This document shows, in pieces, positions 3 through 13,114 of a DNA stretch of 64,000 bases (its first letter is position 1; each line of letters starts with the position of its first letter). The translations under genes were made by a program, and so were the position numbers. The DNA lies in assembly GCF_000024125.1 (NCBI RefSeq), contig NC_013222.1, positions 3,365,501-3,429,500 of the forward strand. The letters are read 5' to 3'. A model generated the notes under the pieces. It was not told the origin of the DNA. It saw nothing but the letters and a program-made list of their open reading frames with translations, and did not search any database. The DNA comes from Robiginitalea biformata HTCC2501 (GTDB lineage Bacteria; Bacteroidota; Bacteroidia; Flavobacteriales; Flavobacteriaceae).

Positions 3-2774
3 ATCGGGGCCAATAACGTACAGATTGCCATTCAACAATTAAAAGATGAATTGGATGCCGGGGGCGGCGGAACCCAAAATCTCACCAGCGTCCTGACGTT
101 TGGGAATGATGCCGGAGGTACCGGGATCATAAACCTCCCGGACCCGACCCTGGCACAGGATGCCGCAACGAAGGCCTATGTGGATGCCGTTGCGGGCGGC
201 GGTGCCGTAGAGGTAGCCGACCAGGTAACCATCACCGGCGTGGGAACTGTAGGCGATCCCTTCAAGGTAGCCGACGGAGGGGTGGGCACAACCCAACTGG
301 CCGATGCTGGGGTTACGGGCGCCAAAATCGCACCCGGGGTGGACGGCGAAGTATTGACTACGGTTGGAGGGATTGCGGTCTGGTCCGCTCCTTCTGCAGG
401 TGGTGTTACCACTGACGGAACCACGATTGAAGGTGATGGGGACGTGACCCCGCTTTCCGTTGTTGCCGGCGGCATAAGCGCCAATGAACTGGCAGATGAC
501 GCAGTGACTACCGCCAAAATCCTAGACGGCCAGGTCCAGACCCCAGATCTGGCCGATGCCGCCGTTACCGCAATAAAAATCAACCCGGGGGCCGACGGAC
601 AGGTTCTTACCACTGTTGGAACTACTACAGTTTGGGCGGACCCGGCGGCAACCGGCGGGGCTGTCACCGCAGATGAAACAACTATCACCGGTGATGGGGA
701 TGCCACCCCACTCTCCGTACTGCCCGCGGGAATAACTTCGAACGAATTGGCAGATGACGCCGTGACCCCGGCAAAATTGCTAGCGGGAAATGATGACGAA
801 GTCCTGTTAAGCAGCGGAGGCGCCGTTGCCTGGACGCCCCTGGCCGGCCTGTCGCACAGCGATGAGCCCACCGGAATCTTTTTTGGGGACGGTTCCGGGG
901 CGCCCGTCACGAATGCCCCGAACTTCTTCTGGGATCCGGCCCTGCGAGTTGGTTTTGGAGGATTGGGTATCGGATTGGAGGCTACTTCCCACGCAGATAT
1001 TGCGAAGGTGCAAATTTCCGAGCGCCTGCCCCCAAGTGCTATGACCTATCCGCTGCACATCAACAATACATTCGGCAATGATGGCTCTAATGTGGGCATC
1101 CTTTTTGGGACTAGCACAAATACCGCCGTAGCCAAAGGCGCCATTGTATACGAGCGCGACCAGAGCCTTTTTAACGGTCGCGGGGACTTCCACATCTTGC
1201 AAAATCAAACCAATACCATTGGCGCGCTGCCCACAATCGCAGATGCTGTTTTTACGGTGACTTCTATTGGAAATGTAGGTGTCGGGACACCAGCACCACA
1301 GTCTAAATTAGATGTCGCCGGCGCTACACGAACTCAAAGCCTGGAGCTTCTTGGTGGTATCGTTGATAATGCATTAAGCAATGGAACTCCTGGCGACGTA
1401 TTAAGCATTGACGGGGGCGGCCAGGTGGTTTGGGCTACAGCTTCAGCAGGAGCTGTTCAATCCGATGCTACGCTTTCTGGGGATGGAACGGGAGGGAGCC
1501 TCCTGAGTGTTGCCGACAATGGTATAAATACCAGCAAAATCCTGAATGGGACCATCCTTGAAGAAGACTTTGCAGACAATGCAGTAGCAACCGCAAAAAT
1601 CCAGAATGCTGCCGTCACCGAAGTCAAAATTGCCCCTGGAGTTGATGGTGAAGTACTCACAACTGTGGGCGGCATTACTGCGTGGGCTGCACCAGCGGCA
1701 GGGAATGACGATCAGGAAGCATTCGAAGTTCCTTGGGATAATACAAATGTCACCGGTTTTGTGGCCACAAATGTGCAAGCTGCCTTAGATGAAATCATCA
1801 ATAATGTTCCTCCGCTACAAGATGCAGTGGATGTCCCATATGATAATGTTTCCTCCGGATTGACAGGGGATAATGTGCAAGCGGCATTGGACGAAATTGT
1901 CGCGAATATCCCCAGCGACAATCAAATGGCGGATGAGGTGAATTTAAATCCAGGGATAGATGTAGACGGTGACCTCGTTAATGAAACAACCGTTCAGGAA
2001 GCATTCGAGGACCTGGTGGCCTCCGGAATTGGTGCAAATTTGGCCAATATTGACCTTGTACAAGAACCTGAGGATCGTAACTATGACCTGAACGGTCAGA
2101 ACTTAATCTTTGGCGGGGTTGGTGGTTCAGTTGGAATAGGGGATTTTGGTGGCGGTGGCCCTGCGAGTCCGGCAAGTAAATTGGACGTGGATGGTCAAAT
2201 TCAAGCAAGATTTGGGTTTGCTTCAACAGAGGGATCCGCAGGTCAACCGGCCTATGGATTTTACACCAATGGTGATACAAATACTGGGATGTTTCGGATA
2301 GCTGATGATCACCTTGGATTTTCCACCGCGGGAACACTTGCGATGGAAATTGAGGATATTGATGGAACGAATAGTAATGTGAGAATTGTAGGTAACCTCA
2401 CAGTAACTGGAACATCTACTTCTACAAATTACCCCGACTACGTCTTCCAATCCTATTTCACCGGGGCTTCAGAAATCAAACCGGATTACGAAATGCCCAG
2501 CCTGGATGCTGTTCGGGAATTTGTGGAGAAACATCACCACCTGCCAGGCGTAACTTCAATTGCAGATGTAAAGGAACAAGGCGGCATCATCCTCAATGAG
2601 GCCACTACACAAAACCTCGAAAAAATCGAAGAGCTCTTTTTGCACACCATCGAGCAGGAGGCCAAAATACGGTCCCTGAAAGAGGAGAATGCGTCCCTTG
2701 CCACGGAATTGGAGGACCTCAAGGCGCGCATGGCACGCATCGAGAGCCTGCTGTCTAACCAAATCGAGGAATAG
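3..2774 (+). CDS. Repetitive fibre-like surface protein, 5' end cut by window
   Basis: The frame is open from the window edge, so the true start lies upstream; 923 residues are visible. The protein is rich in Gly, Ala, Asp, Thr and Val and holds degenerate modules: LADDAVT/AKI, a DGEVLTTVGG/W module, and NVQAALDEI (near 1780 and 1875). Around residues 300-450 it changes to a head-like segment with VGVGTPAPQSKLDVAG. The C-terminus has DYVFQSYF, then HHHLPGVTSIADV, then a heptad-like coiled coil of about 60 residues. In Bacteroidetes this ending is typical of tail-fibre-like or adhesin-like proteins. Its stop is 1 nt before the next gene, a CHU_C protein, so the two are probably co-translated. 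Base composition turns AT-richer from about 1050 to 2450. The exact function is unknown; surface exposure is inferred. Confidence 0.8.
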   Translation: MGANNVQIAIQQLKDELDAGGGGTQNLTSVLTFGNDAGGTGIINLPDPTLAQDAATKAYVDAVAGGGAVEVADQVTITGVGTVGDPFKVADGGVGTTQLADAGVTGAKIAPGVDGEVLTTVGGIAVWSAPSAGGVTTDGTTIEGDGDVTPLSVVAGGISANELADDAVTTAKILDGQVQTPDLADAAVTAIKINPGADGQVLTTVGTTTVWADPAATGGAVTADETTITGDGDATPLSVLPAGITSNELADDAVTPAKLLAGNDDEVLLSSGGAVAWTPLAGLSHSDEPTGIFFGDGSGAPVTNAPNFFWDPALRVGFGGLGIGLEATSHADIAKVQISERLPPSAMTYPLHINNTFGNDGSNVGILFGTSTNTAVAKGAIVYERDQSLFNGRGDFHILQNQTNTIGALPTIADAVFTVTSIGNVGVGTPAPQSKLDVAGATRTQSLELLGGIVDNALSNGTPGDVLSIDGGGQVVWATASAGAVQSDATLSGDGTGGSLLSVADNGINTSKILNGTILEEDFADNAVATAKIQNAAVTEVKIAPGVDGEVLTTVGGITAWAAPAAGNDDQEAFEVPWDNTNVTGFVATNVQAALDEIINNVPPLQDAVDVPYDNVSSGLTGDNVQAALDEIVANIPSDNQMADEVNLNPGIDVDGDLVNETTVQEAFEDLVASGIGANLANIDLVQEPEDRNYDLNGQNLIFGGVGGSVGIGDFGGGGPASPASKLDVDGQIQARFGFASTEGSAGQPAYGFYTNGDTNTGMFRIADDHLGFSTAGTLAMEIEDIDGTNSNVRIVGNLTVTGTSTSTNYPDYVFQSYFTGASEIKPDYEMPSLDAVREFVEKHHHLPGVTSIADVKEQGGIILNEATTQNLEKIEELFLHTIEQEAKIRSLKEENASLATELEDLKARMARIESLLSNQIEE

Positions 2775-2775
2775 G

Positions 2776-3921
2776 ATGCGCCTGATCTGCACATATTGTC
2801 TCCTGTTAATGGGCAGCGGCCTCTTGGCCCAGCCCGCCCTGCAGCACTATGGGAACATGCAGCTGCACGGCGGGGCCCAACTGGGGCTGCACACCAACCT
2901 GGTGAACCAGGCGCCTTTTGACCAGAACCTGGGGCTGCTCGGCTTTTACGGGTCCACCCCCCTGCGGGTCAGCGGGGGGTTCGCGCCGGGGGCTTTTGAC
3001 GTGGAGATTGCCAATGATGCCGGCGTGGACCTGGACTTGCCGATTTTTATAGCCAATAACCTGAACTTTATCTCGGGGGATTTCCGGACAGACCGGACGC
3101 TGGCAGACCAGTATATCGGGCTCCTGCAGGATGGCTTTACCGTAGGGGAATCCGATGCCTCCAAGGTGGACGGCTTTGTGCAGGGGGTCCAGCAACCCGC
3201 CTTTGTATTCCCCGTGGGCGATGCCTCCCAATTGCGGGCCCTCACCTACCAGGCATCCGGCACGGTACCTGTGGCCCGATGCGCCTATTTCCGGGAGGAC
3301 CCTACCGTCACCACCCCTTACGGATTTTTTAACCCGGACCTCCGGCCGCGGACCATCGAGGCCGTTGGCCAGAATGAATACTGGCGTTTGGAGGGTGCGG
3401 TTTCCGGGACGGTTACCATCAGCTGGAATCCGCAAAGCAATATGGCCGGAATTGCCACAGACATTAGCCAGATTGTTATCCTGGGATGGAATAAATCCGG
3501 GGGTCGGTGGATTTCCCTCGGCACATCCAGTGTGGCGGGCGACCTGATGAACGGATTTGCGGTTTCCGAACCCTTTGTCCCGGATGATTTCCACGTGATT
3601 ACCTTTGGCAGCCTCTCTGAAATCGAAGAGGTGGCTTCCCTGCCCAACTACTACGTCAGCCCGAACGATGACGGCATCAACGATTTCTTGCAAATCGACG
3701 AGCTGGCCGACTCCCCCAACAACCAACTTCGAATCTACGACCGCCGGGGCCTGCTGGTTTTTACCCAGGACAATTACACGGACCAGTTCAACGGCATTTC
3801 CAATGTGGACGGTCTGGTTTTTGACCGGGATGCCGGCCTGCCGGAAGGCGTGTACTTCTACGTGGTCCGCCTTCTGGACCTGGGAACCGAATATCAGGGT
3901 TTTTTGTACTTACGCCGATAG
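2776..3921 (+). CDS. Exported protein with CHU_C type IX sorting domain (first copy)
   Basis: 381 residues starting at the ATG 1 nt after the preceding stop. Residues 1-19 are a signal peptide ending LLAQ. The middle is a beta-rich domain with no name I recognise, opening with a YGNMQLHGGAQ motif. Residues about 290-381 match the gliding-motility-associated C-terminal domain (CHU_C, TIGR04131 type): YYVSPNDDGIND, LRIYDRRG, GVYFYVV and a terminal YLRR. That domain directs export through the type IX system in Bacteroidetes. The protein is a clear paralogue of the one at 7641-8810 in signal peptide, opening motif and layout. It may anchor or cap the upstream fibre protein; this rests on adjacency only. 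Confidence 0.87.
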   Translation: MRLICTYCLLLMGSGLLAQPALQHYGNMQLHGGAQLGLHTNLVNQAPFDQNLGLLGFYGSTPLRVSGGFAPGAFDVEIANDAGVDLDLPIFIANNLNFISGDFRTDRTLADQYIGLLQDGFTVGESDASKVDGFVQGVQQPAFVFPVGDASQLRALTYQASGTVPVARCAYFREDPTVTTPYGFFNPDLRPRTIEAVGQNEYWRLEGAVSGTVTISWNPQSNMAGIATDISQIVILGWNKSGGRWISLGTSSVAGDLMNGFAVSEPFVPDDFHVITFGSLSEIEEVASLPNYYVSPNDDGINDFLQIDELADSPNNQLRIYDRRGLLVFTQDNYTDQFNGISNVDGLVFDRDAGLPEGVYFYVVRLLDLGTEYQGFLYLRR

Positions 3922-3947
3922 GTTTCGAATCAGCAGCATGTCGTTGT

Positions 3948-3969
3948 AACGCCTGATTTTTCAGGTGTT
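3948..3969 (+). terminator. Weak hairpin terminator after first fibre/CHU_C pair
   Basis: AACGCCTGA (3948-3956), a TTTT loop and TCAGGTGTT (3961-3969) form a 9-bp stem with one G-T pair. The following T tract is short (TTTG), so termination may be partial. Confidence 0.4.
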
Positions 3970-4045
3970 TGAAGCGATATGCCATCTTCACAACACTTAG
4001 CCGTTACTTCACAACAATTCTTTATGACCTGGGCCCGGTCGGATA

Positions 4046-4053
4046 TAACTTTA
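4046..4053 (+). promoter_or_regulatory. Possible -7 promoter element of second fibre gene
   Basis: TAACTTTA differs at the last base from the Bacteroidetes -7 consensus TAnnTTTG and lies about 29 nt before the ATG at 4082. With the hairpin at 3948-3969 it suggests that the second pair is its own transcription unit. Confidence 0.3.
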
Positions 4054-4081
4054 GTTCACAAAACCCGAATTGGACCTCGTC

Positions 4082-7000
4082 ATGAGCAAAAAATATCTAC
4101 TTATCCTATTCTTGTTTTCGGCATTTGTCGGTTCCTCTCAATTAAAAGTGGGGAATCGGCCGGAGCAAATCCACCCGAATTCCGTCCTGGAACTCGAGGG
4201 ATCGGATAAAGCACTTGTACTTACCAGGGTGACGGACCTGCAAATGCAATCGATGAAACCGCTGCACGGTGCAATTGTCTATAACACCGATCAGAAAGCG
4301 CTCTATTATTTTGATTCCACCAAATGGAAGCCTGCCGGATCCGGTGGGGACACTACTGATATCCGATTTGAAAATAATGACGACGGCACTTTCACAGTAT
4401 ACTTTGAGGACGGTCGTAGTTTTACCTCGAATGTTCAGGCCGGGCCCGTTGGACCACAGGGACCCCAGGGGCCTCAGGGCGACCAGGGAATCCCCGGTCC
4501 GAAAGGGGATCCCGGCGACCCGGCATCAGACGACCAGGCACTTAACCTCTCCGGCAACACACTAACCCTGGAGAACGGAGGCACCGTAGACCTTACTGCC
4601 TACCTCGATAACACGGACGATCAGCAAATCACCGATTTCAGCATTTCAGGCAACGTCCTGACCCTGACCCTGGAAGACGGCGGCAGCCAAACCGTGGACC
4701 TTTCCGCTTACCAGGACAATACCGACGACCAGGCCCTGAGCCTTTCCGGGAATACCCTGACTCTGGAGGACGGAGGTACCGTGGACCTTTCCACCTACCT
4801 CGATAACACGGACGATCAGCAAATCACCGATTTCAGCATTTCAGGCAACGTCCTGACTCTGACCCTGGAAGATGGCGGCACCCAGACCGTGGACCTTTCC
4901 GCTTATCAGGACAATACCGACGATCAGGCCCTTACCCTGTCCGGCAATACGCTGACTTTAGAGGACGGAGGCACCGTAGATCTTACGCCTTACCTTGACA
5001 ACACAGACAGTCAGAATATCTCGCTTTCAGGTAACACTTTGACGTTGGACAATGGAGGCACCGTTGATCTTACCGCCTACCTCGACAACACGGATGACCA
5101 GCAAATCACCGATTTCAGCATTTCAGGCAACGTCCTGACCCTGACCCTCGAAGATGGAGGCACCCAGACCGTAGACCTTTCGGCTTACCAGGACAACACC
5201 GATGACCAGGCGCTGAGCCTGTCTGGGAATACGTTAACCCTGGAGGACGGGGGCACTGTTGACCTTTCGACTTACTTGGATAACACCGACAGCCAGAACA
5301 TTTCGCTCTCGGGAAACACATTGACCCTTGACAACGGAGGGACTGTAGACCTTACCGCCTATCTTGACAACACGGATGACCAGCAAATCACCGATTTCAG
5401 CCTGGCTGGAGATATCCTGACCCTGACCCTGGAAGACGGGGGCACTCAGACCGTAGACCTATCCGCTTACCAGGACAACACCGATGACCAGGCGTTGAGC
5501 CTGTCCGGCAACACATTGACCCTGGAAGATGGCGGGACTGTGGACCTAACTGCCTACTTGGACAACACCGACGATCAACAAATCACAGACTTCAGCATTT
5601 CAGGCAACGTCCTGACCCTGACCCTCGAAGACGGGGGCACCCAGACTGTGGACCTTTCCGCTTACCAGGACAACACCGATGACCAGGCCCTGAGCCTGTC
5701 TGGGAATACGTTAACCCTGGAGGACGGGGGCACTGTTGACCTTTCGACTTACTTGGATAACACCGATAGCCAGAACATTTCGCTTTCGGGCAACACATTG
5801 ACCCTCGATAACGGAGGGACTGTAGACCTAACTGCCTACCTCGATAACACCGACGACCAGCAAATCATCGATTTCAGCCTGGCTGGAGATATCCTGACCC
5901 TGACCCTGGAAGACGGGGGCACTCAGACCGTAGACCTTTCCGCTTACCAGGACAACACGGATGACCAGGCGCTTAGCCTTTCCGGCAACACATTGACCCT
6001 GGAAGATGGCGGGACCGTGGACCTTTCGACTTACTTGGATAACACCGATAGCCAGAACATTTCGCTTTCCGGCAACACATTGACCCTCGATAACGGAGGC
6101 ACCGTAGACCTAACTGCCTACCTCGATAACACGGACGATCAGCAAATCACCGATTTCAGCATTTCAGGCAACGTCCTGACCCTGACCCTCGAAGATGGAG
6201 GCACCCAGACCGTAGACCTTTCGGCTTACCAGGACAACACCGATGACCAGGCGCTCAGCCTTTCCGGGAATACGCTGACTCTGGAAGATGGGGGCACTGT
6301 TGACCTTTCCACCTACCTCGATAACACGGACGATCAGCAAATCACCGATTTCAGCATTTCAGGCAACGTCCTGACCCTGACCCTCGAAGATGGAGGCACC
6401 CAGACCGTAGACCTTTCGGCTTACCAGGACAACACCGATGACCAGGCGCTCAGCCTTTCCGGGAATACACTGACCCTGGAGGACGGAGGCACCGTTGATC
6501 TTGCGCCTTACCTTGACAACACAGACAGTCAGAATATCTCGCTTTCAGGTAACACTTTGACGTTGGACAATGGAGGCACCGTTGATCTTACCGCCTACCT
6601 CGACAACACGGATGACCAGCAAATCACCGACTTCAGTATTTCAGGTAATGATCTGACAATAACCCTCGAAGATGGCGGAACCCAGACTGTAGACCTTTCC
6701 GCTTACCAGGACAACACCGATGATCAGGCCCTGAGCCTTTCCGGGAATACGTTAACCCTGGAGGACGGGGGCACTGTTGACCTTTCGACTTACTTGGACA
6801 ATACCGATGACCAGGTCTTGAGCCTTTCCGGGAATACCCTGACTCTGGAGGACGGAGGCACTGTTGACCTAACTGCCTACCTGGACAATACGGATGACCA
6901 GCAAATCACCGATTTCAGCCTGGCTGGAGATATCCTGACCCTGACCCTGGAAGACGGGGGCACTCAGACCGTGGACCTATCCGCTTACCAGGACAACACC

Positions 7001-7636
7001 GATGACCAGGCGCTCAGCCTGTCCGGGAATACCCTGACTTTAGAGGACGGAGGCACCGTGGACCTTTCCACCTACCTGGACAATACCGATGATCAGGACG
7101 CCACAGAAGTATCCTACGACAATACGACGTCAGGACTGGGGTCTTCCAATGTTCAGGAGGCGCTGGATGAAATTGCAACAAACCTTCCCAGTATGCAGCC
7201 ACGTGTCTGGATGGGGGCCATTCGCATTACTTCGAGCGGCACGATGGATGTAACGGGCATCCCTTTCCAACCCACAAGCATCAGCTTTTCGGCTCATGCC
7301 AATGTGGAGAACTTTAATCTGGATTCTGACAATGGTACGCGCAACAACGACTCGGGCATCAGTAACGCATTCGGAACCATGAACGGTTTTGTTCAGGATA
7401 CCGGCAGTGGTTTGAACCAGCAGGTGATCTACGTTGGGGGAAGTGGTAACTCAATCAACGATATTTCCCGATTCGCCTCCAACTCGCACTGTATTGGCCT
7501 GCGTTACAGCAACCAGAATGGTGACAAGCTGGGGCTTACCAGGGCTCGTGTTACCCAAATGAATTCCGACGGCTTCCGTTTGATTACGGACAATTATGCA
7601 GAAGACGTTGTCATCCTTTATCAGGCATATCGTTAA
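4082..7636 (+). CDS. Giant repeat fibre protein with collagen-like segment and 27 tandem units
   Basis: 1184 residues. I chose the ATG at 4082 rather than an in-frame TTG 12 nt upstream because it gives a clean signal peptide (MSKKYLLILFLFSAFVGSSQ). Residues about 20-85 form an N-terminal domain (VLELEG, GAIVYNTDQKALYYFDS) typical of Bacteroidetes fibre proteins. Residues about 120-148 are collagen-like Gly-X-Y (GPQGPQGPQGDQG, GPKGDPGDP). Residues 150-1002 hold 27 units of 29 or 36 residues, each built on SGN-LTL-EDGGT-VDL-YLDNT. Residues 1003-1184 are a non-repetitive end containing NVQEALDEIATNLP, a module shared with the fibre gene at 3-2774. The stop lies 4 nt before the next ATG. Asp/Thr-rich repeats ending DNTDDQ suggest calcium binding, which is inferred. 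Likely an exported adhesin or fibre. Confidence 0.82.
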   Translation: MSKKYLLILFLFSAFVGSSQLKVGNRPEQIHPNSVLELEGSDKALVLTRVTDLQMQSMKPLHGAIVYNTDQKALYYFDSTKWKPAGSGGDTTDIRFENNDDGTFTVYFEDGRSFTSNVQAGPVGPQGPQGPQGDQGIPGPKGDPGDPASDDQALNLSGNTLTLENGGTVDLTAYLDNTDDQQITDFSISGNVLTLTLEDGGSQTVDLSAYQDNTDDQALSLSGNTLTLEDGGTVDLSTYLDNTDDQQITDFSISGNVLTLTLEDGGTQTVDLSAYQDNTDDQALTLSGNTLTLEDGGTVDLTPYLDNTDSQNISLSGNTLTLDNGGTVDLTAYLDNTDDQQITDFSISGNVLTLTLEDGGTQTVDLSAYQDNTDDQALSLSGNTLTLEDGGTVDLSTYLDNTDSQNISLSGNTLTLDNGGTVDLTAYLDNTDDQQITDFSLAGDILTLTLEDGGTQTVDLSAYQDNTDDQALSLSGNTLTLEDGGTVDLTAYLDNTDDQQITDFSISGNVLTLTLEDGGTQTVDLSAYQDNTDDQALSLSGNTLTLEDGGTVDLSTYLDNTDSQNISLSGNTLTLDNGGTVDLTAYLDNTDDQQIIDFSLAGDILTLTLEDGGTQTVDLSAYQDNTDDQALSLSGNTLTLEDGGTVDLSTYLDNTDSQNISLSGNTLTLDNGGTVDLTAYLDNTDDQQITDFSISGNVLTLTLEDGGTQTVDLSAYQDNTDDQALSLSGNTLTLEDGGTVDLSTYLDNTDDQQITDFSISGNVLTLTLEDGGTQTVDLSAYQDNTDDQALSLSGNTLTLEDGGTVDLAPYLDNTDSQNISLSGNTLTLDNGGTVDLTAYLDNTDDQQITDFSISGNDLTITLEDGGTQTVDLSAYQDNTDDQALSLSGNTLTLEDGGTVDLSTYLDNTDDQVLSLSGNTLTLEDGGTVDLTAYLDNTDDQQITDFSLAGDILTLTLEDGGTQTVDLSAYQDNTDDQALSLSGNTLTLEDGGTVDLSTYLDNTDDQDATEVSYDNTTSGLGSSNVQEALDEIATNLPSMQPRVWMGAIRITSSGTMDVTGIPFQPTSISFSAHANVENFNLDSDNGTRNNDSGISNAFGTMNGFVQDTGSGLNQQVIYVGGSGNSINDISRFASNSHCIGLRYSNQNGDKLGLTRARVTQMNSDGFRLITDNYAEDVVILYQAYR
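4529..7087 (+). repeat. 27-unit coding tandem repeat with 759-bp super-period
   Basis: Two unit lengths alternate: A (29 residues, 87 bp; opens DDQ or, as A', DSQN) and B (36 residues, 108 bp; opens DDQQITDFS). There are 12 A, 5 A' and 10 B, which exactly fill 2559 bp. After a first A-B, the order is three times AB + AA'B + AA'B (A replaces A' in the last), then a final A. Super-units are 4724-5482, 5483-6241 and 6242-7000. A 127-nt block at 4986-5112 recurs unchanged at 6504-6630, exactly 1518 bp (2 x 759) away. Confidence 0.95.
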
Positions 7637-7640
7637 TTCC

Positions 7641-8810
7641 ATGAAGGTTTTGCCGACATATTTTATTCTCCTGCTCGGGGCCTTCCTCATGCCATTGGCC
7701 GGGATAGCCCAATCGGGTATTGCCAATCACGGAGCCATGCAACTCCACGGGGATGGATCCGCGGGTTTCCATGCCGATTTCCAAAATGACGGGCCCTTTG
7801 AAAACCTGGAGGGGCTGGTGGGTTTCTACAATGAAACCGGCTCCCTGAAGGTGTCTGGCGGCCATACCCCGGTATTGTTCGATGTTGAGTTTTCCGCTGT
7901 TAAGGGGGTTTACCTGGAAACGCCCGTAGAAGTAGGCAACAATGCCAACCTGGTGCACGGGAACCTGAAAACTTCCCGCAGCACCCCGGAAAACTATCCC
8001 GTATTCGATTTTGATTCCTTCTACACGGGCGAAAGCAGCGTGTCCAAAGTGGACGGATATGCCGCCCTGCAGAACAAACAGGACTTCGTTTTCCCGATTG
8101 GCGACATAGACCGGTTGCGACCCCTGAAAATTCAATCCCAGGCTATTAACGCCCGTGCCACAAGCGCGTATTTTGCCGAGGACCCACAGGCCCCCGTTAG
8201 CCTGAATGGCCGTTTTGACGTGGGGTCTACCGTTGATCCCGGCCTGCGGGTGGGTCGCAGCGAGTTCTGGACGCTGGACGCCGATATCCCCTCCCGGGTA
8301 ACCCTGACCTGGGACGTATACAGCAATGTGGCCGGGGTGGTAAAGTTTTTCGGGGACTTACGCGTGGTGGGTTGGAGCCGGGAAAAACAAGCCTGGGTAA
8401 ACCTGGGCAATACCGCCGTGGAAGGCGGCCGCGACTACGGTTCGCTCACCTCCGATTATTTTGTGCCCAGTGAATACGAAATAATTACCATTGGCGGGAC
8501 GGGCGAATCCGAAAACTACCGGACCGTGGAATTGGACAATTACTACCTCTCCCCCAACGGCGACGGGGTCAATGAAACCCTGGAAATCGAGGCCGCCCGG
8601 GAAATGCCCGGGAACAATTTGCAGATTTACAATCGCTACGGTCAGCTGGTTTACCAAAAGGATAATTACACAGGTGGTTTTGACGGGCAGTCGAATACCG
8701 ATCTGGTCGTTCAACGCCAATCCGGGCTGGAACCGGGTATCTACTTCTATATCATTACGTTTCCCGAACTCCGGGAGCGGCACCAGGGGTATTTCTACCT
8801 CAACGATTGA
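7641..8810 (+). CDS. Exported protein with CHU_C type IX sorting domain (second copy)
   Basis: 389 residues; the ATG 4 nt after the preceding stop gives a signal peptide (ILLLGAFLMPLAGIAQ). The start of the mature protein (NHGAMQLHGDGSAGFHADF) parallels the first copy's YGNMQLHGG segment. Residues about 300-389 are a CHU_C domain: NYYLSPNGDGVNE, LQIYNRYGQLVYQK, PGIYFYIIT and terminal YFYLND. Such domains are recognised by the type IX translocon, and porT occurs at 35179. Being paired twice with a fibre-like gene suggests an obligate partner or anchor, but no partner-binding motif is visible. Confidence 0.87.
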   Translation: MKVLPTYFILLLGAFLMPLAGIAQSGIANHGAMQLHGDGSAGFHADFQNDGPFENLEGLVGFYNETGSLKVSGGHTPVLFDVEFSAVKGVYLETPVEVGNNANLVHGNLKTSRSTPENYPVFDFDSFYTGESSVSKVDGYAALQNKQDFVFPIGDIDRLRPLKIQSQAINARATSAYFAEDPQAPVSLNGRFDVGSTVDPGLRVGRSEFWTLDADIPSRVTLTWDVYSNVAGVVKFFGDLRVVGWSREKQAWVNLGNTAVEGGRDYGSLTSDYFVPSEYEIITIGGTGESENYRTVELDNYYLSPNGDGVNETLEIEAAREMPGNNLQIYNRYGQLVYQKDNYTGGFDGQSNTDLVVQRQSGLEPGIYFYIITFPELRERHQGYFYLND

Positions 8811-8933: not shown

Positions 8934-9677
8934 ATGAAAAGACGCACCTTTATCCGAAACAGCGGCATGGCGGGCCTGGCACTGGGCCTGCCCATATCCG
9001 GCTTTCCGGCCCATACCGCAAGTGGCCAGGACTATTACACGCCGGAAGAACTCATGGGCAAGACGGACCTGGAACTTTTCGGGGAAGGGATCAATCTCCG
9101 CAAGGAAGCCCATGAAGCCTTTGTGCGGATGAAGCGGGCTGCCTACCAGGACGGGATCGATATTTCCGTGGTGAGCAGCTACCGGAATTTTGAACGGCAG
9201 CGCGCCATTTTTGAACGCAAATACATCGCGTTTACAGACGAAGGGCTGGAACCCCTGGAAGCGATCGACAAGATCATCGAATACTCTACCATCCCGGGGA
9301 CCAGCCGCCACCACTGGGGTACGGACGTAGACCTGATCGACGCTTCGAAGCCGGCGGACGGGGACGTCCTAGTTGCCGACAAGTTTGAATCCGGCGGGCC
9401 GTTTGAAGATTTTAAAACCTGGATGGATGCCAACAGCGAATCCTACGGCTTCTACCTCGTATACACAGACAACCCCCGGAGGCGCGGCTTTAAATACGAG
9501 CCCTGGCATTACTCCTATGCCCCGATTTCCCGGGACATGCTCGCGGAGTACCGGCGGCTGAACCTCATCCGCCTGATGGAAGAAGAGGATTTCCTGGGAA
9601 GCGAGCACTTCACAACGGGTTTTTTGCGCACGTATTTTACCGACAACATCCTGGATATCAACCCGGACTTGCTTTAG
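8934..9677 (+). CDS. D,D-carboxypeptidase, LdcB/VanY (M15B) family
   Basis: 247 residues. M15B enzymes are zinc peptidases that trim D-Ala from peptidoglycan stem peptides in the periplasm. The metal and catalytic motifs are present: SYRNFERQ, SRHHWGTDVDL (His and Asp ligands) and EPWHYSY (catalytic Glu, His ligand). The N-terminus RRTFIRNSGMAGLALGLP looks like a Tat signal. It stands alone with its own possible promoter, 41 nt before the next gene. Specificity (D,D versus L,D) cannot be read from the sequence. Confidence 0.85.
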   Translation: MKRRTFIRNSGMAGLALGLPISGFPAHTASGQDYYTPEELMGKTDLELFGEGINLRKEAHEAFVRMKRAAYQDGIDISVVSSYRNFERQRAIFERKYIAFTDEGLEPLEAIDKIIEYSTIPGTSRHHWGTDVDLIDASKPADGDVLVADKFESGGPFEDFKTWMDANSESYGFYLVYTDNPRRRGFKYEPWHYSYAPISRDMLAEYRRLNLIRLMEEEDFLGSEHFTTGFLRTYFTDNILDINPDLL

Positions 9678-9718: not shown

Positions 9719-10480
9719 ATGAGGCGAGGCAATTGGAAAATCCGCATATTCATCGGCCTGGCCATTGTGGCCTTTGCCTTTATCCAGCGTTGTGGCGACC
9801 AGGAAGAAAATCCGTATACCGGCCGGACCCAGACCATCAATATGTCGGCACAGCAGGAAATTGCCATCGGCCTGCAATCGGCCCCGGAAATAGCACAGCA
9901 ACACGGCGGCCTCTACCGGGACAACCGGCTGCAGAGCTCTGTGGACGCCGTCGGCAACCGACTGGTGGAAAGCAGTATCGCAGAGGAAACCCCGTATCAA
10001 TACGAGTTTCACTTACTTGCGGATGAGCAGACGGTCAATGCCTTCGCCCTGCCGGGCGGGCAGATTTTTATCACCTATGCGCTTTTCTCCCGTCTGAACG
10101 AAGCCCAGCTGGCCGGGGTCCTCGGCCACGAAATCGGGCATGTCATCGGCCGGCATTCCGCCGAGCGCATTGCCGAGACGAATTTTTGGAAAACGCTGTC
10201 GATGGGAGCCTCCGTGGGTGCGGACATGGGGAACGTTGTAGCCGGGATCGGGCAAACAACACTGCTTACCAACGGTCGGGACGACGAACTCGAGAGCGAC
10301 GAACTCGGCGTGTTGATCATGCTACAGGCGGGATACGACCCGGAAGAATTGATCCGCGTGATGGAAATCCTCAAGGAAGCCTCCGGCGGGAACCGCGTCC
10401 CGGAATTCCAGAGTACCCACCCGGATCCGGACAACCGGATCGAACGGATTCGCAAGGCCATCGAGAAATATCGCAGTTAA
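9719..10480 (+). CDS. M48-family periplasmic metalloprotease
   Basis: 253 residues. It has an N-terminal hydrophobic segment followed by FIQRCGD, which may be a lipobox, so it is probably exported and perhaps a lipoprotein. The zinc motif HEIGHVIGRHSAE lies near residue 137 and the third ligand is probably in ESDELGVLIMLQAGYDP. The length and N-terminus (NPYTGRTQTINMS) match the small LoiP/YcaL/BepA-type M48 proteins that handle misfolded outer-membrane proteins; that role is inferred from family. It ends TQHP-like (FQSTHPDPDNRIERI), usual for the family. Confidence 0.88.
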   Translation: MRRGNWKIRIFIGLAIVAFAFIQRCGDQEENPYTGRTQTINMSAQQEIAIGLQSAPEIAQQHGGLYRDNRLQSSVDAVGNRLVESSIAEETPYQYEFHLLADEQTVNAFALPGGQIFITYALFSRLNEAQLAGVLGHEIGHVIGRHSAERIAETNFWKTLSMGASVGADMGNVVAGIGQTTLLTNGRDDELESDELGVLIMLQAGYDPEELIRVMEILKEASGGNRVPEFQSTHPDPDNRIERIRKAIEKYRS

Positions 10481-11590: not shown

Positions 11591-13114
11591 ATGAATTCCA
11601 AAGCCATACTGATGATCCTGGACGGATGGGGAATCTCCCCGGACCCGAAAGTCTCCGCCATTGAGCAGGCCGACACCCCGTTTGTAGATTCCCTCTATGA
11701 GAAATATCCCCACGCCACGCTGCTTACCGATGGCATGCATGTGGGGCTGCCCGACGGGCAGATGGGGAATTCCGAAGTGGGCCATATGAACCTCGGGGCG
11801 GGCCGTATTGTCTACCAGGATCTGGCCAAGATCAACCTGGCGGTTTCCAACAACAGCCTCAAGGATGCCCCGGCATTGAAGGAAGCTTTCCGGTATGCCG
11901 TTGAAAACGACAAACCCGTACATTTTCTGGGACTCCTTTCCGACGGAGGCGTACACAGCCATATCGACCACCTGAAAGGCCTGATCCGCGCGGCCGACGA
12001 AGCAGGGGTTCCCGCTTCCTATGTCCATGCGTTTACCGACGGACGCGACGTGGATCCAAAAAGCGGGGTGGGCTTTGTACGAGACCTGATGGAATTTGCC
12101 CGGCCTACGCGCACCAGGCTTGCCTCCGTGGTAGGGCGGTATTTCGCCATGGACCGGGACAAGCGATGGGAACGCGTCAAAAAGGCGTATGACCTGTTGG
12201 TCAACGGCACGGGGACGGCCACGGACAACCCGGTTGCCGCCCTGGAAGCCAGCTATGCCGCGGGAACCACGGACGAGTTTGTGGAGCCCATTGCGGTTGC
12301 CGGGACAGACGGCAAACCCCTGGCGCAGATCCGGGACGGGGACGTGGTGGTCTTTTTCAATTTCCGTACAGACCGTGGCCGGGAGCTGACCCTGGCATTG
12401 AGCCAGGAGGCTTTCCACGAACAAAACATGCACCCGCTCAAGTTGCACTACGTGACGATGACCAATTACGACGATACGTTTAAAGACGTCCATGTGGTCT
12501 ACGACAAGGAAAACATCAAGGATACGCTCGGGGAAGTTCTCGCCCGGGCCGGAAAGAAACAGATTCGGATTGCGGAGACCGAAAAATACCCGCACGTCAC
12601 CTTCTTTTTCAACGGGGGCCGGGAAGCTCCTTTTGAAGGGGAATCCCGGATCCTCTGTCCCTCGCCCAAGGTAGCCACTTACGACCTGCAGCCAGAAATG
12701 AGCGCCTACGACATTCGAGACGCCATCCTCCCGGAACTGGCCAAAGGCGAAGCGGATTTTGTCTGCCTGAACTTCGCCAACCCGGACATGGTGGGGCATA
12801 CCGGCGACCTGCAGGCTGCTATCAAAGCCTGTGAGACGGTGGATGCCTGTGCCCGGGACGTAATCACCGCCGGCCTGGAGAACGGGTATACCACCCTGGT
12901 GATTGCCGATCACGGCAACTGCGACACCATGGTAAACCCGGACGGCAGCCCCAACACCGCCCACACCACAAACCCGGTGCCGCTGATCCTGGTGGATCCC
13001 GACCGAAAATCCATAAAATCGGGGGTCCTCGGCGACATGGCCCCGACCATCCTGGAGATTATCGGCGTTGCGCAACCCGAACTGATGACCCAGAAATCCC
13101 TATTGGTTTCATGA
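11591..13114 (+). CDS. gpmI: 2,3-bisphosphoglycerate-independent phosphoglycerate mutase
   Basis: 507 residues, the usual length. Interconverts 3- and 2-phosphoglycerate in cytosolic glycolysis with two Mn2+ ions. Visible motifs: ILDGWG (metal Asp11), LPDGQMGNSEVGH with the phosphorylated nucleophile Ser61, FTDGRDVDPKSG, GRYFAMDRDKRWER, FFFNGGRE, FANPDMVGHTGD and IADHGNCD, all in family order. Its last codon overlaps the start of the next gene by 4 nt (ATGA), implying translational coupling. Confidence 0.97.
   Translation: MNSKAILMILDGWGISPDPKVSAIEQADTPFVDSLYEKYPHATLLTDGMHVGLPDGQMGNSEVGHMNLGAGRIVYQDLAKINLAVSNNSLKDAPALKEAFRYAVENDKPVHFLGLLSDGGVHSHIDHLKGLIRAADEAGVPASYVHAFTDGRDVDPKSGVGFVRDLMEFARPTRTRLASVVGRYFAMDRDKRWERVKKAYDLLVNGTGTATDNPVAALEASYAAGTTDEFVEPIAVAGTDGKPLAQIRDGDVVVFFNFRTDRGRELTLALSQEAFHEQNMHPLKLHYVTMTNYDDTFKDVHVVYDKENIKDTLGEVLARAGKKQIRIAETEKYPHVTFFFNGGREAPFEGESRILCPSPKVATYDLQPEMSAYDIRDAILPELAKGEADFVCLNFANPDMVGHTGDLQAAIKACETVDACARDVITAGLENGYTTLVIADHGNCDTMVNPDGSPNTAHTTNPVPLILVDPDRKSIKSGVLGDMAPTILEIIGVAQPELMTQKSLLVS

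Follow-up and report, generated by a model that had tools for sequence, protein, structure and literature searches.

Long, repetitive fibre proteins that lack a recognised sorting signal raise the question of how they leave the cell and what holds them at its surface. We addressed this question at the start of the window, the 64,000-nucleotide stretch of the Robiginitalea biformata HTCC2501 chromosome analysed here, where a fibre gene is followed by a small gene for a CHU_C protein twice in a row. This layout of two consecutive pairs was confirmed directly on the window sequence, and the spacing of 1–4 nt given in the first-pass annotation was reproduced, with gaps of 1 and 4 nt. All window features described below are on the + strand.

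The first pair forms an alpha cassette. Of fibre 1 (3..2774), a protein of 1363 aa, the window contains the final 923 codons, as its edge cuts the gene; the full gene (L001:8184-12275) starts 1318 bases upstream of the window, and its product has a head scoring 130.8 bits against head alignment A2 and a coiled-coil C-end (HLPG...EKIEELFLHTIEQE). The stop codon ends at 2774 and, after 1 nt, CHU_C partner 1 (alpha clade) starts at 2776. This partner (2776..3921, 381 aa) comprises a signal peptide recognised by eye, a partner domain and a T9SS type B sorting domain at 3640..3912 (PF13585, E 1.8e-24; residues 290-380 in the frame read from 2773), and it scores 38.8 bits against TIGR04131 (cut-off 35).

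The second pair forms a beta cassette. Fibre 2 (4082..7636, 1184 aa) consists of a signal peptide, a head module (QLKVGNRPEQI...YYFDSTKW) at 4139..4339 scoring 119 bits against alignment A2, a short collagen-like GPQ/GPK stretch at 4439..4522 (residues 120-147; PF01391, E 0.0007, under the curated cut-off), a stalk of tandem repeats at 4532..7099 in which Tandem Repeats Finder reported overlapping units of 87, 195, 282 and 477 bases, an NVQEALDEI module read from the sequence at 7148..7174, and a C-terminal tip at 7193..7636 that is predicted to be a beta domain. The single-chain model of this tip (pLDDT 88.4) bears a weak likeness to phage fibre and tailspike ends and to H-type lectins. Fibre 2 ends at 7636 and, with 4 nt between, CHU_C partner 2 (beta clade; 7641..8810, 389 aa) starts at 7641; an in-frame ATG at 7596 provides an alternative start, from which partner 2 would overlap fibre 2. 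The sorting domain of partner 2 lies at 8532..8801 (PF13585, E 2.5e-25; residues 313-402 in the frame read from 7596), and the protein scores 42.9 bits against TIGR04131 (cut-off 35), with a single-chain model pLDDT of 82.6.

The PF13585 matches bear out the CHU_C ends that had been claimed for both small proteins, and the likeness in their layout also held, the two being 39% identical throughout. Both contain the MQLHG motif, but it is not their opening, as had been stated: it stands at residues 28 and 33, just after the signal peptide. Similarity between the two fibres is confined to the initial 83 aa, which cover signal peptide and head (49%), and to the surroundings of NVQ.ALDEI. The NVQ(A/E)ALDEI module is present in both, as noted before, but the head is the more specific feature, because a third fibre of the genome has the module too. 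In agreement with the earlier description of fibres without a CHU_C domain, no T9SS signal was found in either window fibre.

Linkage was then assessed with 44 strong relatives of the CHU_C partner, retrieved from 28 of 149 genomes of the family. A head-bearing fibre gene lies upstream in the same run for 27 of the 44; in 15 cases the contig stops inside a fibre-like ORF (judged by eye), in one the fibre is interrupted by a stretch of N, and in one the fibre lies downstream. In a set of named genomes, a fibre-like gene precedes all 47 assessable partners (49 in total). Conversely, among 50 strong-head fibres, 16 are cut by contig ends and 30 of the 34 assessable ones are followed by a partner within the run; the other four (L107, L109, L105 and L067) are not, and in L105 and L067 the partner stands in front. 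Both families occur in 26 of the 149 genomes and neither in 119; each occurs by itself in 2. Fibre–partner linkage exceeds chance. The small protein is not widespread without a fibre, nor is the pair unlinked in related genomes, and the proposal that it is a functional unit is supported. The unit is often larger than a pair, however: up to seven extra genes lie between the head-bearing fibre and the partner, and in one locus (L065) a single partner closes a run of eight genes with differing C-ends. The spread of the linkage over numerous genera, with the partner closing the run, argues against two co-regulated but separate surface proteins encoded side by side without binding, in which the fibres leave by another route or signal, for example in the conserved head, and the CHU_C proteins by T9SS.

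Sorting signals are divided unequally between the two families. Every tested linked partner carries one: a type B T9SS signal (TIGR04131 and CHU_C) in 43 of 44, and in the remaining one (L067, genome G143) a match to the type A model at 23.2 bits (cut-off 23). None of 42 complete fibres matched TIGR04131, TIGR04183 or the type C model (E ≤ 0.01). In the window pairs, Sec signal peptides were recognised by eye in fibres and partners alike. The C-terminal TIGR04131/PF13585 domain that defines type B membership is found in the partners, including both in the window, and from this domain composition the partner is most likely secreted by T9SS as a type B substrate. A phmmer search that used a single SprF from the same genome as query detected no SprF gene adjoining any of the 44 strong partners; among the named genomes, one partner (L172) adjoins an SprF-like gene on the opposite strand. 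Because orphan type B substrates are known, a missing adjacent SprF does not exclude type B membership. The R. biformata genome has eight PorP/SprF genes, five of them beside other CHU_C genes. Among ordinary type B/SprF genes, four weak partner matches were seen, only two of which lie behind a fibre-like gene (L070 and L072; not L071 and L073).

The partner therefore carries an export tag that the fibre lacks, which suggests that it delivers the fibre to the surface or retains it there. Type B substrates use PorP/SprF for both secretion and anchoring (PMC9143113, PMC12618676), and known examples stay bound to the PorP/SprF barrel at the outer membrane (PMC9143113). We favour, with a probability of about 0.5, a surface adhesin fibre held, and perhaps co-exported, by a dedicated T9SS partner. 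The fibre would enter the periplasm through its own Sec signal peptide and form a long stalk whose N-terminal head is conserved and whose tip varies. The partner, as a type B substrate, would be placed on the cell surface by T9SS. There it would bind the fibre, with the conserved head as the likeliest contact site, and hold it so that the tip points outward; the two may pass through the outer membrane together. The available portions of the T9SS literature yielded no precedent for the export of a 1000–3000-aa stalk bound to another protein.

The chromosomal setting bears on the origin of the locus. Genomes of a group of marine bacteria carry one to three fibre and partner cassettes, mostly at one fixed site, and the conserved flanking genes are 6.6–29.5 kb apart with the locus versus 1.5–5.6 kb without it; the position of the fibre cassettes between conserved flanking genes is a new observation. 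In the window, the downstream flank consists of a VanY-type carboxypeptidase (8934..9677, PF02557), probably outside the fibre system, an M48 peptidase (9719..10480, PF01435) and a third marker at 11591..13114, identified by conserved gene order, which we take to be a phosphoglycerate mutase (GpmI). Domesticated phage tail genes, left by a prophage or tail-like particle whose fibres were released by lysis, would account for the phage-like fibre modules and for the fibre 2 tip model, which resembles phage proteins (best BFVD match E 2.8e-6). Such an origin is very improbable: Sec signal peptides are recognisable by eye in fibres and partners, the type of the sorting domain is cellular, and locus maps inspected by eye, one of them viewed in part, displayed only fibre, partner and other secreted genes and conserved cellular flanks, with no other phage gene seen between the flanks.

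In the tree, a branch with 100/99 support separates the two window partners, so their duplication looks old. The alpha and beta clades occur together in 12 genomes, and the duplication claimed for the pair was borne out, most simply as an event long ago. Whole cassettes stay together. Judged by eye, the HLPG coiled-coil end precedes 13 of 20 alpha partners and none of the 24 beta/gamma ones, so that partner clade tracks the kind of fibre C-end. This would fit a chaperone or tip adhesin capping the distal fibre end, as would the match of some fibre modules to PHROG tail fibre families and a gene order shared with phages, in which small genes follow tail fibre genes (T4 gp38/Tfa). The C-end correlation may, however, be mere inheritance of whole cassettes, and the single partner of L065 closes a run of eight genes with different C-ends. 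In known cases, moreover, the type B domain is retained at the outer membrane (PMC9143113), which would put the partner at the fibre base. The role of anchor or cap first proposed is compatible with the data, and we regard a distal cap as unlikely.

At least six kinds of C-end can be told apart by eye among the fibres, and the head is the part common to them, as separate export through a signal in the head would have it. Head and partner divergence are correlated within clades (r 0.44 and 0.48, Mantel p 0.0015 and 0.0025, 14 pairs each), but not significantly with VanY distance as species proxy (partial r 0.20/0.35, p 0.08/0.09; 13 and 9 genomes), which also favours separate proteins. As a control, 43 fibre genes with a related QVGIGTTTP head were examined: the gene behind is on the opposite strand in 19, another such head in 8 and another same-strand gene in 16, three of which have a type A signal. 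A recognised sorting-signal gene directly behind is thus absent for 40 of the 43 (two neighbours were cut), so fibres of this wider kind leave without one or never leave. Against separate proteins, two different CHU_C families sit behind fibre genes. The third R. biformata fibre precedes a gene of a second, longer CHU_C family (679 aa) and SprF. This family has 21 relatives including its own; all 18 readable ones follow a frame ending LINVVFV, as in the 3140-aa fibre, and 16 of the 18 have SprF (by motif) downstream. Taken together, separate proteins are possible, though we hold this reading doubtful.

Tentatively, the favoured reading may extend to a T9SS two-partner arrangement, in which a separate signal-bearing protein takes signal-less phage-tail-like fibres through the outer membrane and mounts them. 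At least two signal-bearing families would share such a split of signal and load; a shuttle of its own accompanies one of them but not the other. T9SS substrates are described in PMC12618676 as having their own C-terminal sorting domain; load and signal on two genes, if true, would widen the range of T9SS export and explain how repetitive signal-less fibres arrive at the surface. The locus is a ready test bed: its site is mostly fixed, the number of cassettes and their tips vary, and several of the marine genera are in culture.

Among known systems, long phage tail fibres are alike in having a modular stalk, an end that varies and a small gene following the fibre gene, and there are PHROG tail fibre matches; here, signal peptides are present, the small protein bears a T9SS domain, and the site has no phage genes in view. 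T9SS type B substrates with a cognate PorP/SprF shuttle (SprB-SprF, Fjoh_3952-Fjoh_3951, PG1035-PorP) resemble the partner in its signal peptide and TIGR04131/PF13585 domain. In contrast to SprB-SprF type pairs, the fixed neighbour is a signal-less fibre and not SprF. Orphan type B substrates (Fjoh_1123, Fjoh_1720 and Fjoh_4934 with the shared Fjoh_1677) likewise lack an adjacent SprF; they are likened by domain type and differ in that the available text of PMC12618676 describes no fibre partner for them. By analogy, it is a natural guess that a shared shuttle would serve the partner. Two-partner secretion and collagen-like adhesins (Scl, Lcl, BclA) offer a passenger with an adjoining helper gene, and 8 of 42 fibres match collagen-adhesin models and 2 of 42 the BclA C-terminal domain; unlike in two-partner secretion, the helper here looks like a T9SS substrate rather than an outer-membrane pore.

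Genes were called with a simple longest-frame script; signal peptides, C-end classes and whether a cut frame counted as fibre-like were decided by eye. The genome carrying the window forms one contig (C1) of 3,530,383 bases, in which the window occupies positions 3365501-3429500. The two consecutive fibre/CHU_C pairs described in the first-pass annotation are borne out by the sequence, which runs fibre 1, a 1-nt gap, CHU_C-1, 160 nt, fibre 2, a 4-nt gap and CHU_C-2. Fibre 1 comprises 1363 aa, and its gene extends upstream beyond the window edge. CHU_C-1 and CHU_C-2 are 39% identical over their full length, and the best named relatives of the window's small CHU_C protein are Robiginitalea proteins. 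The two fibres share 49% identity over their first 83 aa (signal peptide and conserved N-terminal head) as well as an NVQ.ALDEI module, and are unlike elsewhere: fibre 2 has a long tandem array and a C-end of its own, and the C-end of fibre 1 is a coiled coil. A single cysteine follows the signal peptide in most CHU_C partners (within ..CAYF) and is missing from CHU_C-2; two (C54, C67) occur in 26 of 28 fibre heads, and fibre 2 lacks both. These losses in partners and heads do not track one another, and the partners' lone exported cysteine hints at a link to another protein.

To follow the two families across genomes, profile A1, covering the part of the CHU_C protein ahead of the CHU_C domain, was searched in 149 genomes of the family and matched in 39 at E<=1e-10. 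Forty-four matches in 28 genomes were strong (at least 223 bits; next best, 78 bits), and the surroundings of all 44 were fetched and read upstream. Small proteins occurring widely without the fibre would have spoken against a unit, and this was not what the loci showed: 27 of the 44 had a fibre gene with the head of the window fibres (F1) upstream on the same strand, either adjacent or further up the run beyond other genes, and for 15 the contig ended inside an open frame that was fibre-like by repeats or C-end, as judged by eye; contig breaks end many loci, as expected for repetitive genes. In one further locus (L044) the fibre is interrupted by a run of N, and in another (L067, genome G143) it lies downstream of the partner. 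The L067 partner (L067:2883-3914) joins the partner-family N-terminal domain to a type A sorting domain in place of CHU_C (TIGR04183, 23.2 bits; cut-off 23).

The two families also co-occur, as the annotation had suggested checking: a strong head (>100 bits) and a strong partner were found together in 26 of the 149 genomes, each without the other in two, and neither in 119, counts that are not independent events because the genomes are related. Of the four exceptions, the fibre is cut by the contig end in G103 and G106, and in G037 and G082 the head lies at the contig end, the partner position falling beyond the visible sequence. Viewed from the fibre, 30 of 50 strong heads are followed by a partner within their run (28 nearest pairs and two in the G135 run), contig ends interrupt the gene or run of another 16, and four (L107, L109, L105 and L067) have no partner behind them, the partner standing directly in front in L105 and L067.

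When named genomes were scanned with profile A6, which is narrower, 38 loci emerged, four of which (L145, L156, L175 and L178) are contigs already in the first set, identical in length. The 38 loci contain 49 partners: 23 are preceded in the run by an F1 fibre, 22 stand at the start of the stretch behind an open frame (fibre-like by eye), two (L151, L160) follow a fibre with a second head type, and two (L148, L157), themselves at a contig edge, fall outside the linkage count. Genera represented include Maribacter, Zobellia, Flagellimonas, Allomuricauda, Muriicola, Robiginitalea, Kriegella, Lentiprolixibacter, Sediminicola, Euzebyella, Pseudozobellia, Cerina and Eudoraea. A MazEF-like toxin-antitoxin pair separates fibre and partner gene in Cerina litoralis (L171:2283-2842). 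In Robiginitalea sediminis (L163) the frame ahead of the partner is collagen-like with a masked stretch; positions 3235-8640 encode a beta fibre whose LSGNTLTLEDGGTVDL repeats and tip are both of the kind found in window fibre 2, with masked stretches in the repeats. In Pseudozobellia sp. WGM2 (L172) the partner is adjoined by an SprF-like gene of opposite strand, the sole such case among the loci mapped.

As a control, we examined fibres with a related head, QVGIGTTTP..., which were weaker matches in the head search; 34 loci (L111-L144), a subset of those matched, were fetched, and 33 contained 43 such genes. The next gene lay on the opposite strand in 19 cases, carried another such head in eight and was another same-strand gene in 16, two of these cut by the stretch end; among the matches listed, three of the 16 matched the type A model TIGR04183, and a single type B match might stand outside that listing. 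These counts indicate a strong tie to a sorting-signal gene in the window's fibre family and an occasional one among fibres of the wider kind, in an uneven comparison, since whole runs were read for strong heads and only the next gene for weak ones. One of the three type A proteins, 652 aa long, is encoded 38 nt behind its control fibre at L113:950-3738 (G125); the two look like a further fibre-plus-signal pair, perhaps of the same design with another partner.

The annotation's reading of the pair as a functional unit is supported by linkage, with the correction that the unit is often larger than a pair: up to seven genes (in L065), often small fibres with the second head type F2 (IDGxLLLGL...), separate the F1 fibre from the partner, which comes last. 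The nine-gene L065 run (L065:2579-15761, G003) begins with an F1 fibre and ends with one partner; of the seven diverse proteins between them, several have an EGD.Y.G head. This run may encode a multi-part surface structure.

Most partner loci have their cassettes flanked on one side by what we take to be an M1-type peptidase gene and carboxypeptidase-regulatory-like genes, and on the other by VanY, M48 and a putative GpmI. In 22 of 28 partner genomes only a few kilobases separate VanY from a partner, and VanY is not directly behind the partner in six (G003, G051, G059, G076, G119 and G143). On single contigs, the M1-VanY distance is 6.6-29.5 kb with the locus (11 genomes) versus 1.5-5.6 kb, median 3.4, without it (38 genomes), indicating that the flanks are old neighbours, with gain or loss of cassettes between them.

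A maximum-likelihood tree of the 44 partners separates the two window partners by a 100/99 branch into an alpha clade of 20 rows (with CHU_C-1) and a beta/gamma clade of 24 (with CHU_C-2), the placement of the two L044 partners differing between two tree programs. Both kinds occur in twelve genomes, and alpha is upstream in all seven with both on one contig. Most simply, then, the duplication proposed by the annotation predates these genera; cassettes may also have been transferred between genera. An HLPG coiled-coil end, scored by eye, precedes 13 of 20 alpha and none of 24 beta/gamma partners, which suggests joint inheritance of fibre and partner as a single block.

A third fibre, of 3140 aa with similar repeats, lies elsewhere in the genome, with genes for a 679-aa CHU_C protein and then PorP/SprF behind it (arrangement at L074:971-10453 and L002:6974-9974). 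The 679-aa protein has twenty-one relatives, its own entry included, at E below 1e-230, three of them unreadable. A frame ending in LINVVFV, like the 3140-aa fibre, precedes all 18 readable ones (10 caught by a stricter fibre-end pattern, the others read directly from their C-ends), and SprF, identified by motif, lies behind 16 of the 18.

According to PMC9143113 and PMC12618676, type B substrates require a PorP/SprF barrel and remain bound to it at the surface. The partner, as a type B substrate, would therefore be expected to be held at the cell surface, at the outer membrane. Since the head is the conserved end of the fibre and the tip the variable one, the simplest picture is that the partner would contact the head, with the tip pointing outward; co-divergence of head and partner speaks faintly for such contact. 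The neighbourhood search found no SprF adjoining the window's partners. Their own genome has eight PorP/SprF genes, five beside other CHU_C genes; the three without an adjoining CHU_C gene (G000:C1:44411, 2381583 and 2748792) are candidates for a shuttle that the window's partners might share. With no SprF next door, these partners resemble three F. johnsoniae type B orphans that, according to PMC12618676, share one shuttle.
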